This document shows positions 430 to 47,796 of a DNA stretch of 64,000 bases, piece after piece. The stretch is from Gemmatimonadota bacterium (GTDB taxonomy: Bacteria; Gemmatimonadota; Gemmatimonadetes; Gemmatimonadales; Gemmatimonadaceae): the NCBI GenBank assembly GCA_028287235.1, contig JAQBQB010000030.1:372001-436000 (forward strand), given 5' to 3'. Positions within the stretch are counted from its first letter, which is position 1, and each line of letters opens with the position of its first letter. Under the pieces are notes generated by a model, which saw only the letters and a program-made list of their open reading frames with translations, made no database searches and was not told the origin of the DNA. Made by a program: the position numbers and the translations under genes.

Positions 430-432
430 AGC

Positions 433-546
433 GAAGGGGAAGCGGGAAGAGGAAGGGGGAGAACCCGCGCGCGGTCGGCTTGGCGCGGCGTTCCCGCTTC
501 CCTCTTGCTCTTCCCCCGTCCCGCTTCCTCCCTTCCCCTTCCCTCC
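433..546. repeat. Heptamer-periodic inverted repeat element a
   Basis: A purine-rich left arm (433-461) built of roughly 7-nt units such as AAGCGGG and AAGAGGA faces a pyrimidine-rich right arm (491-546) with units TTCCCGC, TTCCCTC and TCCCGCT. The arms are imperfectly complementary around a GC-rich core. It fills the gap between the first gene and the MFS gene. It resembles the 7-nt-periodic elements at 15817, 29835 and 46711 in design though not in base sequence. It may fold as a hairpin or work as a terminator; function unknown. Confidence 0.6.
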
Positions 547-548
547 AA

Positions 549-10870: not shown

Positions 10871-10940
10871 GCGATCCTTCGCTGCGCTCAGGATGACAAT
10901 CATCGGCTCAGGATGACAATCATCGGCTCAGGATGGCAAA
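10871..10940. repeat. REP-like element copy 2 with 20-bp tandem amplification
   Basis: CGCTGCGCTCAGGATGACAAT at 10880-10900 matches the copies at 4893 and 38171. It is followed by two more 20-nt units, catcggctcaggatgacaat (10901-10920) and a variant (10921-10940), so the right half has been copied in tandem, ending at the PrcB-like stop codon. This looks like replication slippage at an interspersed repeat. Confidence 0.65.
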
Positions 10941-14805: not shown

Positions 14806-15816
14806 ATGACTGTACCGAGAATCGACGCGACCGACGAGCCCAAAGATCTCGGGCTCGGCGCGGTCGTGGGCGGGGTGAACGAGAAGCGGCTGCTCAATCG
14901 CGACGGAACGTTCAATCAACGTCGCCGCGGCCTGCCGCTCCTCGGCTCACTCAGCCTCTATCACTTTCTGCTGACGATCTCCTGGTCGCGTTTCTTCGCG
15001 ATCGTCGTCGGCGGTTATCTCACGGCGAACACGCTATTCGCGCTCGCCTACCTCGCCTGCGGCACCGACTCCCTGATCGCGTCGCCGACCGCGAACATCT
15101 CGACGCCCTTCTGGCGCGCGTTCTTCTTCAGCGTGGAGACGCTGGCCACGATCGGCTACGGCAACGTGACGCCGAACGGCATGGCCGCGCACTTCGTGAT
15201 GACGGCGGAATCGCTCGTGGGGCTGCTGATCTTCGCGCTGGGCACGGGAATTCTCTTCTCGCGTTTCTCGCGCCCCACGGCGGCGATCCTGTTCAGCACG
15301 CGCGCGGTGGTCGCGCCGTATCGCGGCACCACCGCGTTCATGTTCCGCATCGCGAACGGCCGATCGAATCAGCTCGTGGAGCTCGAGGTCAAGCTGCAGT
15401 TCAGTCGCATCGAAGGCACGGTGCGCAAGTACGACCAGGTCTCGCTCGAGCGGTCGCGCGTCACGTTCTTTCCGCTGAGCTGGACGGTCGTGCATCCGAT
15501 CGACGAGAAGAGTCCGTTGTTCGGAATGTCGGACGCGGAGCTCGTGACCAAGGATGCGGAATTCCTCATCCTGCTCTCGGGCACCGACGAGACCTTTTCC
15601 CAGACGGTGCACGCGCGCTCGTCGTACAAGCCGAGCGAGATCCAGTACGGGCACAAGTTCGTCAACATCTACAACCCGGTCGGCGACGACGGGATGGTGA
15701 GCATCGACGTGCGGAAGTTGAGCGACACGGAGCCGGCGGAGGACGACGGGTTCGCGCATACGTCGACGTGGCATCACACCGGGCACTACGCCGGGTATTC
15801 GCCGCCCAGAAAATAG
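14806..15816 (+). CDS. Inward-rectifier-type potassium channel (KirBac family)
   Basis: A 336-residue protein with a first helix (FFAIVVGGYLTANTLFALAYL), a pore helix and the K+ selectivity filter TIGYG at residues 115-119, a second helix (SLVGLLIFALGTGILFSRF) and a C-terminal immunoglobulin-like cytoplasmic domain from about residue 155, as in KirBac channels. It conducts K+ across the inner membrane, gated by the cytoplasmic domain. The gene follows the S9 peptidase by 36 nt and may share its transcript. Key filter and domain order are intact. Confidence 0.92.
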   Translation: MTVPRIDATDEPKDLGLGAVVGGVNEKRLLNRDGTFNQRRRGLPLLGSLSLYHFLLTISWSRFFAIVVGGYLTANTLFALAYLACGTDSLIASPTANISTPFWRAFFFSVETLATIGYGNVTPNGMAAHFVMTAESLVGLLIFALGTGILFSRFSRPTAAILFSTRAVVAPYRGTTAFMFRIANGRSNQLVELEVKLQFSRIEGTVRKYDQVSLERSRVTFFPLSWTVVHPIDEKSPLFGMSDAELVTKDAEFLILLSGTDETFSQTVHARSSYKPSEIQYGHKFVNIYNPVGDDGMVSIDVRKLSDTEPAEDDGFAHTSTWHHTGHYAGYSPPRK

Positions 15817-15897
15817 GGTGCGGGTCTAGGGCAGGTGTGCGGCGCGCCGCTTCGATCCCCAAACCCAACCGCGATACTCTAGACCCTAGACCCTGGT
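15817..15897. repeat. Heptamer-periodic inverted repeat element b
   Basis: GGGTCTAGGG at 15822-15831 is perfectly inverted as CCCTAGACCC at 15884-15893, where the heptamer CTAGACC is repeated in tandem. The middle contains GTGTGCGGCGCGCCGCTTCG, close to the core of the element at 29835. The right arm provides the stop codon of the leftward gene at 15886, so that gene's 3' end lies inside the repeat. Convergent genes on both sides suggest a terminator role, but there is no U-tract. Confidence 0.65.
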
Positions 15898-22488: not shown

Positions 22489-23019
22489 ATGAGCGCCGCC
22501 ACGATCGAACGGCCGCACGCCGACGAGCATGCGCCGTATTACGGCAAGTACATCGCACGCGTTCCCGACGGAGACCTGGTCTCGCTTCTCCGCGAGCAGT
22601 TGATGGATACCGTCGCCCTGCTTCGCGGGGTGTCGCCCGACCGAGCCGACTTCGCATACGGCCCCGGAAAGTGGACGATCAAAGAAGTGGTGGGACATCT
22701 GGTGGACACGGAGCGCGTGATGGCCTATCGCGCCCTGCGCTTTGCGCGCAACGACCGGACGGAACTTCCCGGCTTCGACGAGAATACGTGGGCAGTGAAC
22801 TCCGACGCCGCCAGCCGGACGCTGGGCGATCTGCTCGAGGAGTTTCAGGTCGTGCGGTCGTCGACGATTCATCTCGCCAAGCATCTGAGCGCCGACGCAC
22901 TCGCCCGCCGCGGGAGCGCGAACGGACAGGAGGTCAGCGTGCGTGCGCTGTTCTACATCATCGCGGGGCACGAGCGGCATCATGCCGATCTGCTTCGCGA
23001 GCGCTACTTGCCGCAGTAG
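22489..23019 (+). CDS. DinB-family protein
   Basis: A 176-residue four-helix-bundle protein of the DinB/YfiT class. The metal-binding His positions are visible: H in EVVGHLVDTE and the pair in GHERHHADLL near the C-terminus. Members include thiol transferases and damage-inducible proteins; the partner thiol and substrate are unknown. The N-terminal 15 residues precede the bundle. The ORF is followed by a 10-nt tandem repeat that includes its stop codon. It is one of about seven DinB-type genes in this window. Confidence 0.8.
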   Translation: MSAATIERPHADEHAPYYGKYIARVPDGDLVSLLREQLMDTVALLRGVSPDRADFAYGPGKWTIKEVVGHLVDTERVMAYRALRFARNDRTELPGFDENTWAVNSDAASRTLGDLLEEFQVVRSSTIHLAKHLSADALARRGSANGQEVSVRALFYIIAGHERHHADLLRERYLPQ

Positions 23020-23040
23020 GTCGCAGTAGGTCGCAGTAGG
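23011..23040. repeat. Three-copy 10-nt tandem repeat
   Basis: ccgcagtagg then tcgcagtagg twice, in tandem. The first copy contains the TAG stop of the DinB gene, so extra copies simply add further stops. A recent slippage event is likely. Confidence 0.8.
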
Positions 23041-29791: not shown

Positions 29792-29834
29792 CAAGGAATA
29801 GACACCGAACGCGAGCGATGGATTCCAAACCGCA

Positions 29835-29920
29835 GGGTTTAGGGGCTGGGGTAAAGGGTATAGGGAAGCTGTGCGGCGCGCCGTGGGCGCGCCGCTTGAT
29901 ATGGGGATGCCGAAAGGCCT
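29835..29920. repeat. Heptamer-periodic element c (five GGG-N4 units)
   Basis: From 29835 five units in perfect 7-nt register begin with GGG (GGGTTTA, GGGGCTG, GGGTAAA, GGGTATA, GGGAAGC). Then comes a core, CTGTGCGGCGCGCCG, also found in the element at 15817. A C-rich right arm is missing, so it may be a half element. Four or more GGG runs with 4-nt loops could form a G-quadruplex on this strand. It lies in the 188-nt gap between the sigma factor and the exonuclease gene. Confidence 0.65.
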
Positions 29921-29979
29921 TCTCATCGAATCGCGCCGAAGGCGCGACGTACCGACCCGAAAACCTTCGACCCGATTCT

Positions 29980-44740: not shown

Positions 44741-46639
44741 GTGAAACTCGCCCCCCCGCTCCTTTCCATCTCGCTCGCCGCCGGCTTGTTGTATGCCGCG
44801 GCGTGCGCGTCGACGTCGACTTCGGCGTCGTCGTCGTCGAACATGTCGGCTCCCGACATGTCGATGTCGCCGCCGAGCCCCGACCCGCGCGTGGGACTCC
44901 GCGCCGGCTCCATGGTCAAGTGGTCGAAGGACACCACGAAGAAGACGTTGGCGACGCGCGCCGCCGAAGCGTCGTGGAACATGCGCCTCCTGTCGAACAC
45001 CCCGCCCAATGAGACGTTCATGGGCGTGACGCACTCGGATCTCGCCTTCAAGGGCCCGTACGCCATCCAGGGCAACTACGACGGCTACCAGATCTTCGAC
45101 ATCTCGAATCCGAGAAAGCCGTCGCTGTACGACGAATACGTGTGCCGCGGCTCGCAGAGCGACGTGTCCGTCTATCAGAACCTGATCTTCGTGTCGGGTG
45201 AAGCCACGAGCGGCCGTCTCGATTGCGGCCTGCAGGGCATCCAGGACTCGATCAGCAAAGAGCGGTTCCGCGGCATCCGTATCTTCGACGCCACGGATCT
45301 CAAGCATCCGAAGTACATCGCCAGCGTGCAGACCTGCCGCGGCTCGCACACGCATACCGTTGTCGAAGATCCGAACGACAAGAACAACGTCTACGTCTAC
45401 ATCTCGGGCTCGTCGGGCGTTCGTCCGGCCGCCGAGCTCGCGGGGTGCGTGGATCTCGCGCCCGATCAGGATCCGAACGGCGAGCAGTTCCGCATTGAAG
45501 TGATCCAGGTGCCGCTCGCGCACCCGGAGCAGGCGCACGTGATCACGAAGCCGGGCATCCTCACGGACCTCGCACCGGCACCGCGCAACAACTCGCGTAC
45601 GGCACAGGATTCGATCGACCGTGCGGCGCAGGCGGCTGCGCGCGGTGGTGCAGGTGGACGCGGTGGCCCGCCGGGCGGCGGTCGTGGACGGGGCAACGCT
45701 CCTCCGCGCGGACCGGTGCAGTGCCACGACATCACGGTCTATCCGGCGGTGGGCCTGGCCGGCGGCGCGTGCGGCGGTTACGGACTCCTGCTCGACATCA
45801 GCGACGTGAAGAACCCGAAGCGTCTCTACGCGGCGGCCGATTCGAACATGTCCTTCTGGCATTCGGCCACGTTCAGCAACGACGGCTCGAAGGTTCTGTT
45901 CAGCGACGAGTGGGGCGGTGGTTCGGCTCCGCGTTGCCGCTCGACCGACAAGTACGAGTGGGGCGCCGACGCGCTCTTCACGATCGTCAACAAGCAGACG
46001 GTCTTCCAGAGCTACTACAAGATGCCCGCCGCGCAGACGCAGTTCGAGAATTGCGTCGCCCACAACGGCTCGCTGATTCCGATCCCGGGACGCGAAGTGA
46101 TGGTGCAGGCGTGGTATCAGGGCGGCCTGTCGATCTTCGATTGGAGCAACACGGCGCACCCGAAGGAGATCGCGTTCTTCGACCGCGGTCCGATCGACAC
46201 GATAACGGTCGGCGCGAGCGCCGGTTCGTGGTCGGCGTACTGGTACAACGGCGTCATCGTGAGCTCCGAGATCGGCCGCGGCCTCGACATCTTCGAGATC
46301 ACGCCGAGCGCGTTCATCTCGCAGAACGAGATCGACGCGGCGAAGACGGTGCACTTCGACTACCTGAACGTGCAGGGCCAGCAGAAGATGGTGTGGCCGG
46401 CGAGCTTCTCGCTCTCCCGCGCCTACCTCGACCAGCTCGCCCGCAACAACGGTCAGACGCCGGACAAGATCGCGGCTGCTCGCACCGGGCTCGCGAACGC
46501 CGAGAAGCTCTCCGGTCAGGCGCGGAAGGATGCGCTGGCGGCGCTGGCGACTCAGCTCCACACCGACGCGCAGGGCGCGGCGGACGCACCCAGAGCGCAC
46601 AAGCTGGCGTTCTCGGTGGGCGATCTGGCGAAGATGTAG
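44741..46639 (+). CDS. LVIVD-repeat lipoprotein
   Basis: A 632-residue protein with a lipoprotein signal (Cys22 in YAAACAS) and a propeller of LVIVD-type repeats (YDGYQIFDISNPRKPSLYD, IRIFDATDLKHPKYIASV, LLLDISDVKNPKRLYAA). A Met/Ser/Asp stretch (NMSAPDMSMSPPSP) follows the signal. An RGG-like tract is at nt 45640-45715. GTG 44741 with GGAG upstream. Function unknown; cell-surface propeller. A terminator follows at 46667. Confidence 0.8.
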   Translation: MKLAPPLLSISLAAGLLYAAACASTSTSASSSSNMSAPDMSMSPPSPDPRVGLRAGSMVKWSKDTTKKTLATRAAEASWNMRLLSNTPPNETFMGVTHSDLAFKGPYAIQGNYDGYQIFDISNPRKPSLYDEYVCRGSQSDVSVYQNLIFVSGEATSGRLDCGLQGIQDSISKERFRGIRIFDATDLKHPKYIASVQTCRGSHTHTVVEDPNDKNNVYVYISGSSGVRPAAELAGCVDLAPDQDPNGEQFRIEVIQVPLAHPEQAHVITKPGILTDLAPAPRNNSRTAQDSIDRAAQAAARGGAGGRGGPPGGGRGRGNAPPRGPVQCHDITVYPAVGLAGGACGGYGLLLDISDVKNPKRLYAAADSNMSFWHSATFSNDGSKVLFSDEWGGGSAPRCRSTDKYEWGADALFTIVNKQTVFQSYYKMPAAQTQFENCVAHNGSLIPIPGREVMVQAWYQGGLSIFDWSNTAHPKEIAFFDRGPIDTITVGASAGSWSAYWYNGVIVSSEIGRGLDIFEITPSAFISQNEIDAAKTVHFDYLNVQGQQKMVWPASFSLSRAYLDQLARNNGQTPDKIAAARTGLANAEKLSGQARKDALAALATQLHTDAQGAADAPRAHKLAFSVGDLAKM

Positions 46640-46666
46640 TGTCGGGCTTCGCCTGACCTAAGAAAG

Positions 46667-46703
46667 CGCGGGCCCAGGCAACTGCCTGGGCCCGCGTTGT
46701 TGC
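46667..46703 (+). terminator. Intrinsic terminator of the LVIVD gene
   Basis: CGCGGGCCCAGG pairs with CCTGGGCCCGCG around a 6-nt loop and is followed by TTGTTG. A strong stem, weak U-tract. Confidence 0.75.
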
Positions 46704-46710
46704 GGGCTGC

Positions 46711-46846
46711 CGTTCTGCGTTGTCCGTTTTCCGTTGTCCGTTGTCCGTGGGGCAAACTGCTTGACACACCGTCCCCGGGCCAAGCGAAGAACCTGGCGAG
46801 CAACGGAAAACGCTCAACGGACAACTCAAAACGGAAAACGGCAGCC
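46711..46846. repeat. Heptamer-periodic inverted array (element d)
   Basis: From 46711 five units in strict 7-nt register read CGTTCTG, CGTTGTC, CGTTTTC, CGTTGTC, CGTTGTC. After a core of about 50 nt the right arm (46799-46840) gives GAAAACG, CTCAACG, GACAACT, CAAAACG, GAAAACG in register, the inverse complement. It lies between the LVIVD terminator and the glutaminyl cyclase gene. Best example of the element type at 433, 15817 and 29835. Confidence 0.8.
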
Positions 46847-46887
46847 TGCAGGGGCGAAGTCGCTCGCGCCCGGCGACAAGGGCGGCG

Positions 46888-47796
46888 TTACCTTCGCCCC
46901 GCGTTCGCAACGCCCACGGCTTTTTCTCGATTCACCTGGAACAGCCGCGGCCACAGCTTGCCCGTCATCAACAACCGATCGCTCGTCGAATCGTACGCGA
47001 TGCCGTTCGCGACTCCTCCGCGGGCGGCCACATCCTTTCGCTCCGCCGGCGTGAGCAGCGTCCCGACGTCGATCCACCCGACCACTCGTCCGCTCGTTGG
47101 ATCGATACGCGCGACGAAGTCGGTCTCGTACACGTTCGCCCACAGCTCGCCGCGGACCCACTCCAACTCATTGAGCATCCACACCGGCGAGCCGGCCTCG
47201 CTCACCTGAATGGTTCGTTCAACGTGAAAGCTCGCTGGGTCGATTACGCGAATGCGGCTCGTGCCGTCGCTCAGATACAGCGTACGTCCATCGGTCGCGA
47301 GCCCCCATCCTTCGCCCGCGTAGTGAAAGCTGTCCACGGGCGCGAGCGTCGCCGCGTCGTACACGTGGCCGAGCCCAGCTTTCCAGGTGAGTAGATACAG
47401 GCGCGAGCCGATCACGGCGATCCCTTCGCCGAACTCGGTGAGCCCCAACGGTGTTCGGTGACGGACCACTCCGGTCGCGGCGTCGACGTTGCGTACGTCG
47501 GAGGAGCCCTCGCGGCCCACGCTCTCGAGCAGGCGGCCGCGATCGAGCACGAGTCCCTGCGTGTAGGCGCCGGTGTCGTGCGGCCAGCTCCTGATTGCGT
47601 ACGCGGCCGCGCGAGGCGTGGCGGCGTTGAATGGAATGGCTGGCGGCTGCGCGTCGGCGTTCGTCTGTTTCGGCGGCATCATGCCCGGCAGCAGCGCAGG
47701 CGCCTTGCCGTCGGAGCTCTCGGCATCGTCGTGGCCGCACGCCATGAAGGCGAGTGCCGCCGCGACGCAGGCGACGAGCTGCCGCACCGGCTTCAC
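46888..47796 (-). CDS. Glutaminyl-peptide cyclotransferase-like lipoprotein
   Basis: A 302-residue protein. The signal VKPVRQLVACVAAALAFMAC gives a lipobox at FMAC. The mature part is a beta-propeller with YTQGLVLDRGRLLES, LWANVYETDFVARIDP and LLMTGKLWPRLFQV, motifs of the bacterial/plant-type glutaminyl cyclase, which forms pyroglutamate at peptide N-termini. GTG 47796 overlaps the cyclophilin stop by 4 nt. Last gene of the operon. Confidence 0.85.
   Translation of the reverse strand: MKPVRQLVACVAAALAFMACGHDDAESSDGKAPALLPGMMPPKQTNADAQPPAIPFNAATPRAAAYAIRSWPHDTGAYTQGLVLDRGRLLESVGREGSSDVRNVDAATGVVRHRTPLGLTEFGEGIAVIGSRLYLLTWKAGLGHVYDAATLAPVDSFHYAGEGWGLATDGRTLYLSDGTSRIRVIDPASFHVERTIQVSEAGSPVWMLNELEWVRGELWANVYETDFVARIDPTSGRVVGWIDVGTLLTPAERKDVAARGGVANGIAYDSTSDRLLMTGKLWPRLFQVNREKAVGVANAGRR

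Follow-up and report, generated by a model that had tools for sequence, protein, structure and literature searches.

Element d, an inverted repeat in a 64,000-nt stretch of a Gemmatimonadota genome (hereinafter the window), belongs to a class of extragenic repeats that is frequent in this bacterial order and in which the unit length is tightly fixed at 7 or 8 nt, while the unit sequence is not. Copies of these elements abut stop codons, and, between species, a given gene junction gains and loses elements that follow one plan but are unrelated in sequence. We propose, at a probability of roughly 0.45, that element d is a small dispersed extragenic hairpin whose arms, mostly an inverted pair, are built from units of fixed length, and that such hairpins are mobile and act behind stop codons. 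The inverted heptamer form is not wholly new, since such pairs are known from Xanthomonas; what is new is the 7/8-nt rule, the anchoring at stop codons and the replacement of units between species.

Element d is a folded inverted repeat lying in the convergent gap 46640-46887 (Table 1). A preliminary description of the window had recognized five CGTTNTS heptamers facing at least five complementary units, and this arrangement is borne out: the left arm displays five strict CGTTNTS units followed by CGTGGGG, and the right arm, read from 46840 down to 46801, has five in-register units, three of them strict and two with one change. TRF assigns a period of 7 with 5.6 copies to the left arm (lag-7 score 21.8) and a period of 14 with 2.9 copies to the right arm. 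The inverted repeat extends beyond the ends given earlier (46711-46846) by the addition of the outer boxes, such that two arms of 48 nt (46701-46748 and 46803-46850), 79% complementary, stand 54 nt apart; the core measures 52 nt from arm to arm. A three-unit pattern, CGTTNTCCGTTNTCCGTTNTC, searched with up to three mismatches, yields six matches in the window, all inside element d, where shuffles expect 0.03, and element d is the sole strong 7-nt array of the window. The RNA fold of 46697-46855 reaches -80.1 kcal/mol (z -6.05), with none of 200 shuffles being as good. No Rfam family matches in the window above its gathering score.

Table 1. Features of the window discussed in the text (positions are those of the window; a dot marks features given without strand).
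Feature	Position	Strand	Evidence or remark
GGGAAGC-family element, probably element a of the preliminary description	430..548	.	Array scan; begins directly past TAG 427-429
Short GGGTNTA-type element, probably element b of the preliminary description	15814..15893	.	Array scan, gene ends; fills convergent gap
GGGTNTA-type (family B) element, partly decayed, probably element c of the preliminary description	29833..29976	.	C1:401827-401962; between divergent genes
Upstream convergent gene, without Pfam match	44741..46639	+	Gene calling, Pfam search; stop 46637-46639
Separate perfect GC-rich hairpin, terminator-like	46667..46696	.	Repeat search; between + gene stop and element d
Element d (family D), whole inverted repeat: outer boxes, heptamer arms and core	46701..46850	.	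Repeat search, fold, dispersed copies
Outer box TGCGGGCTGC	46701..46710	+	Kept among family D copies as TTGCRGGCWGC (copy alignment, hairpins)
Left arm: CGTTCTG CGTTGTC CGTTTTC CGTTGTC CGTTGTC	46711..46745	+	Sequence, TRF, lag-7 score
Core with its own short helix, partly common to copies on C18, C31, C29 and C9	46749..46800	.	Alignment, sequences, fold
Right arm, as reverse complement: CGTTTTC CGTTTTG AGTTGTC CGTTGAG CGTTTTC CGTTG	46801..46840	-	Sequence, TRF
Outer box GCAGCCTGCA	46841..46850	-	Repeat search, copy alignment
Glutamine cyclotransferase, downstream convergent gene	46888..47796	-	PF05096, E 3e-81; stop 46888-46890

With respect to its flanking genes element d is loosely placed, its arms starting 61 nt past the stop of the plus-strand gene and ending 37 nt from that of the minus-strand gene. 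The GC-rich hairpin that precedes it constitutes a second structure of the same convergent gap and is followed by GTTGTTGC, not a T run. Relatives of the cyclotransferase are found in 56 of 118 genomes of the family, plus named Gemmatimonadetes MAGs. No empty orthologous site for element d was found in the cyclotransferase loci of the relatives that were read, because the neighbor of this gene across the gap is not conserved in them.

The earlier proposal that the same 7-nt plan recurs with different units holds beyond the window, element d representing one of the roughly five unit families that this genome contains. The further families show the same plan with other units, namely GGGTNTA (family B), CGTTGGG, GGGAAGC and GAGCNNN, several of them with conserved cores of their own. 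The family scan covered 1.57 Mb of this 5.73-Mb genome; base-by-base reading covered about 27% of the genome and the remainder was covered by search alone. DNA searches recover family D copies at C18:5585, C31:109690 and C29:27271, with 70-76% identity to most of element d, along with many single arms of element d elsewhere in the genome. Family B comprises about 30 copies of approximately 155 nt that are 73-85% identical and display heptamer arms around inner hairpins with a common structured core; it has no match in 59 relatives, five congeners included. The coordinates of elements a, b and c (Table 1) were assigned in this analysis, as the preliminary description had named them without positions. 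In the case of element b, the genes on both sides draw their stop codons from its heptamers (15814-15816, TAG; 15886-15888, CTA, i.e., TAG). We also observe near-perfect long ACGCCCC arrays (G000:C1:1-112, C16:51-112 and C2:14438-14500). Contig 1 begins inside such an array, with about 14 units, and another lies near the start of contig 16; hence, the assembly seems to break at arrays and the counts would be underestimates. The genomes used here are in part metagenome assemblies.

Loci of relatives were fetched by their core genes and not by arrays, and the resulting 216 gene gaps are therefore an unbiased sample. These contain 31 lag-7, 15 lag-8, 24 lag-14 and 13 lag-16 arrays, as compared to 0-5 arrays at lags other than 7, 8 and their multiples, and fewer than one in shuffled gaps. 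In 400 kb of the congener G005 there are 19 lag-7 and two lag-8 arrays, with none in shuffles. Of 62 lag-7 arrays, 47 are accompanied by an inverted partner within their gap. Thus, the periodicity search that had been suggested as a check reveals 7-nt arrays in gene gaps clearly in excess of expectation (the 31 of the 216-gap sample and the 19 of G005), and relatives, in which the arrays might have turned out to be parts of coding genes, carry them between genes or have none. Lag-7 autocorrelation over all intergenic DNA is not raised; the signal comes from discrete arrays and is not diffuse. The heptamer words of relatives include GAGAGTG, GGTCAGA, GGCTATT, TGACTAG and GGAGCGT, and the octamer words include GGCGTCGA, ACGGTAGG and AGTTGAAG. 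At two loci (L282 and L283, of the congeners G003 and G004) octamer hairpins (GCGTCGAG, RGGTGGAC and ATGGGCGT) replace heptamers, and unit length may be a species trait. The heptamer CGTTNTC is patchily distributed: of 288 genomes in the order, 22 have it, and position 5 can be any base, while its reversed control pattern yields almost none. In G005, one array runs to about 10 GGAGAGT units. Two other arrays of this congener (L273 and L274) swap the words GAGGTTG, GAGAGAT and GAGAGTG while keeping the 7-nt phase.

The position of the elements is best seen in family B, with gene ends taken from a simple gene-calling script trained on this genome. Its 27 copies face 30 gene 3' ends, of which 21 are at -11 to +10 nt from the element, where 6.3% would be expected from the share of random intergenic bases that have a stop within 10 nt. 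Once the element is subtracted, the gap measures 40 nt or less for 15 of the 27 copies, and such gaps make up 2.9% of intergenic bases. Seven of the 27 copies occupy convergent gaps and four lie between divergent genes, with most being co-directional, operon pairs included; G005 has arrays in five of 24 convergent gaps. Both in family B and in G005 the counts per gap type approximately follow the number of gene 3' ends that a gap offers, i.e., two for convergent, one for co-directional and none for divergent gaps. The preliminary description missed this anchoring at stop codons; it also missed that relatives use 8-nt units, that families with conserved cores are dispersed and that units are replaced between species at one junction.

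Such replacement is apparent when the same junction is compared across species. Between mdh and sdhC this genome has a 138-nt gap with a family B element directly past the stop, as against gaps of 1, 6 and 27 nt in the congeners G003, G002 and G004, respectively. In G005 the gap measures 85 nt and contains a GGTTGGA-type heptamer hairpin, whose family occurs at additional sites in G005 and matches nothing in the other congeners, and in a genome of another family TCGGTTN heptamers directly follow the mdh stop. At the pdhB-pdhC junction, GGGTNTA units are found here, GAGAGTG-type heptamers in G005, octamers in G003 and G004, and other heptamers in G010 and G007, while the gap is empty in G002 and most others. 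The pilT-pilC junction likewise has GGGTNTA units here and other heptamers in G005 and G020, with none in most relatives. Because most relatives are empty, these sites appear to have been filled rather than emptied.

Several known systems resemble parts of this picture. The REP, BIME and ERIC elements are dispersed imperfect palindromes that occur in many copies near stop codons and in operon gaps with species-specific sequences, and REP sequences reportedly stabilize messages, a result attributed to Newbury in 1987. The likeness lies in dispersed palindromes behind stop codons and applies to family B, element d itself being 61 and 37 nt away from its flanking stops; to our knowledge, none of the three has periodic 7-nt arms. 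A REP/RAYT system was considered and rejected, the Y1_Tnp/RAYT domain (PF01797) having no match in the whole 5.7-Mb genome, rich as it is in dispersed palindromes, while control genomes did match. The foldback transposons of Drosophila have terminal inverted repeats made of short tandem repeats, and are eukaryotic with much longer repeats; we note a likeness in form and claim no homology. Ribosome termination structures (RTS) are post-stop structures that insulate translation; Chemla et al. (2020, PMC7518266) describe them for 18-65% of the genes of 128 bacterial genomes. They are found in all phyla and alter re-initiation in a synthetic operon, but are defined by folding energy only, in 40-nt windows, without repeat architecture or dispersal (PMC7518266). 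Most family B copies occupy an RTS-like position a few nucleotides past the stop, whereas element d itself does not. Tandem heptamers, mostly intergenic, are also known as the cyanobacterial STRR, GGGGA(T/C)T in Nostoc, TAACTGA in Beggiatoa, and GGGACCG and MTYCTGA in Geobacter (PMC4692102, PMC4679880, PMC2700814). In contrast to the elements discussed here, these are mostly direct arrays of fixed sequence with few or no inverted pairs, and the Beggiatoa repeat is located before start codons.

The earlier suggestion that inverted heptamer arrays in pairs represent a repeat type not seen before finds no support: the closest precedent comes from Xanthomonas, two genomes of which have 70 and 75 inverted (GGGANTN)n heptamer pairs (Rehm et al. 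2015, PMC4692102). As in these repeats, where positions 1-4 and 6 of the 7-nt unit are fixed and 5 and 7 are free, the units here take the form CGTTNTN, with positions 1-4 and 6 kept as CGTTNTS in element d and as GGGTNTA in the 27 family B copies. The Xanthomonas repeats are likewise intergenic inverted pairs, lying on average 28 nt past the upstream ORF, and between species their position is conserved while their length and sequence vary (PMC4692102). However, each of the genomes studied there has one unit sequence (GGGAATC, or (GGGANTN)n), which was read as forming G-quadruplexes and for which a role in gene regulation could not be identified (PMC4692102), whereas here a single genome has several unrelated unit families, several of them without a quadruplex motif. 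The present elements are also dispersed and have structured cores; some species use 8-nt units, and one junction may carry different units in different species. The present class thus extends the Xanthomonas-type heptamers to another phylum and removes G-quadruplexes as the common principle.

An orientation-corrected alignment of family B was used to study pairing between the arms. Most unit positions are nearly fixed and paired between arms, but the variable positions pair less than expected (25 versus 42.4 of 130, p 2e-4), mainly in mid-arm and mostly owing to two of the five columns. As some hairpins in other genomes are fully paired, we take this avoidance as a lead and not as a rule; the shortfall likely reflects either selection for the unit sequence plus periodic mismatches or the loss of perfect palindromes. 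Across the dispersed copies, variation is limited to one or two fixed positions of the unit.

We envisage that existing elements would be duplicated into new gene ends by some machinery and that their arms might gain or lose whole units. The transcript could then form an imperfect hairpin right behind the terminating ribosome, such that elements would be kept or tolerated there. By analogy with the roles proposed for REP and RTS, and going by the post-stop address, such a hairpin may shield the upstream message at its 3' end and insulate the gene that follows in the operon; that of element d would serve two converging transcripts. Several observations speak against this proposal: element d sits loosely with respect to its flanking stops, four of the 27 family B copies lie between divergent genes, the pairing shortfall in family B indicates that the pairing of the arms is not under plain selection, and neither a Y1_Tnp gene, a target-site duplication nor an ORF-bearing copy came to light in the genome as read and searched.

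The same observations might instead reflect purely selfish elements of the MITE or foldback kind, with the arms acting as sites for a transposase or recombinase, the families co-evolving with the enzyme, and gene ends being preferred or least harmful as targets. The dispersed families with common cores, the copy bursts restricted to species, the empty sites in congeners, the outer boxes conserved at both ends as terminal inverted repeats common to dispersed copies, and the arms that keep their sequence rather than their pairing at variable positions would all be in keeping with such elements, and one with a target preference for stop codons fits almost as well as a post-stop function. Nevertheless, we consider a purely selfish origin somewhat unlikely: there is no target-site duplication (best of 175 settings z 2.1, 25 copies), the Y1 transposase is absent, and no ORF-bearing or autonomous copy was seen in the roughly 27% of the genome read base by base or in the rest as searched. 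Moreover, the independent occupation of the same site by unrelated families in several species suggests that the location is important in its own right. A candidate autonomous transposon on C24, with arms 4.2 kb apart, was rejected, as it consists of two elements flanking sdhCAB and dcd.

Replication slippage is a distinctly unlikely source of the whole class, although it accounts for the growth of units. Here, a polymerase contact of 7-8 nt would generate duplications, template switching would generate the inversion, and gene ends would be tolerant of both. Slippage is favored by the proposal of Mrazek, as given in the passages of PMC4692102 and PMC4679880 that cite it, that the polymerase contacts 7 nt of DNA, and also by the long perfect arrays of contig 1 (about 14 ACGCCCC units) and G005 (about 10 GGAGAGT units) and the unit variants that change in phase within one array (L274). 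However, slippage leaves unexplained why arrays concentrate at stop codons rather than in any non-coding DNA, why dispersed copies vary at just one or two fixed positions of the unit, and why approximately 30 dispersed copies have a common core; alone, it accounts for unit growth and not for such copies. A bolder reading of the class, which we judge quite improbable, posits a machinery indifferent to sequence but equipped with a 7/8-nt ruler, which would write or copy arrays at gene ends across Gemmatimonadota using words particular to each species, possibly by telomerase-like templated repeat addition or through a recombinase that reads units of 7 or 8 nt. Pointers to it would be the strictness with which arrays keep to these two lengths, almost nothing being seen at 5, 6, 9, 10 or 11, the lack of relation among the words at one junction and the confinement of variation to fixed unit positions.

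That the elements are bidirectional intrinsic terminators of convergent genes is very improbable, notwithstanding their strong hairpins and the enrichment of convergent gaps when counted per gap (5/24 in G005, 7/27 family B copies), as the flanks of element d have no T run after either arm, a separate GC-rich hairpin precedes it, and most copies stand between co-directional genes, among them the operon pairs mdh-sdhC and pdhB-pdhC, which termination would split in two. Finally, G-quadruplexes, which have been proposed for the heptamers of Xanthomonas and Nostoc (PMC4692102), are hardly credible as a common principle and were rejected, for even though family B and the GGGAAGC family match G3N1-7, this motif occurs on neither strand of element d, the short family B element, the GAGCNNN family, the tested CGTTGGG copy and the G005 mdh element, all of which still have the 7-nt plan.

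An excess of heptamers in bacterial genomes has been noted since 2007 with no settled use or cause, according to the passage of PMC4692102 that cites it. This excess now has a sharp address in the stop codon, and a natural experiment is at hand in which one conserved operon junction is, depending on the species, empty, filled by a 7-nt hairpin or filled by an unrelated 8-nt hairpin. Together, these render testable both the origin of the unit length and the effect of a post-stop repeat hairpin on the gene.

Two further repeats of the window are of other kinds. A separate dispersed family, an interspersed repeat of the TCATCCTGAG...AGCGAAGGATC type, is present as tandem copies at 10886-10939, L132 and G000:C2:14026-14494, the copy in the window having a 20-nt unit (GCTCAGGATGACAATCATCG). 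At 23012-23040, three perfect 10-nt units (CGCAGTAGGT) run across the end of the predicted gene 22489-23019, a repeat of a different period at a gene end.
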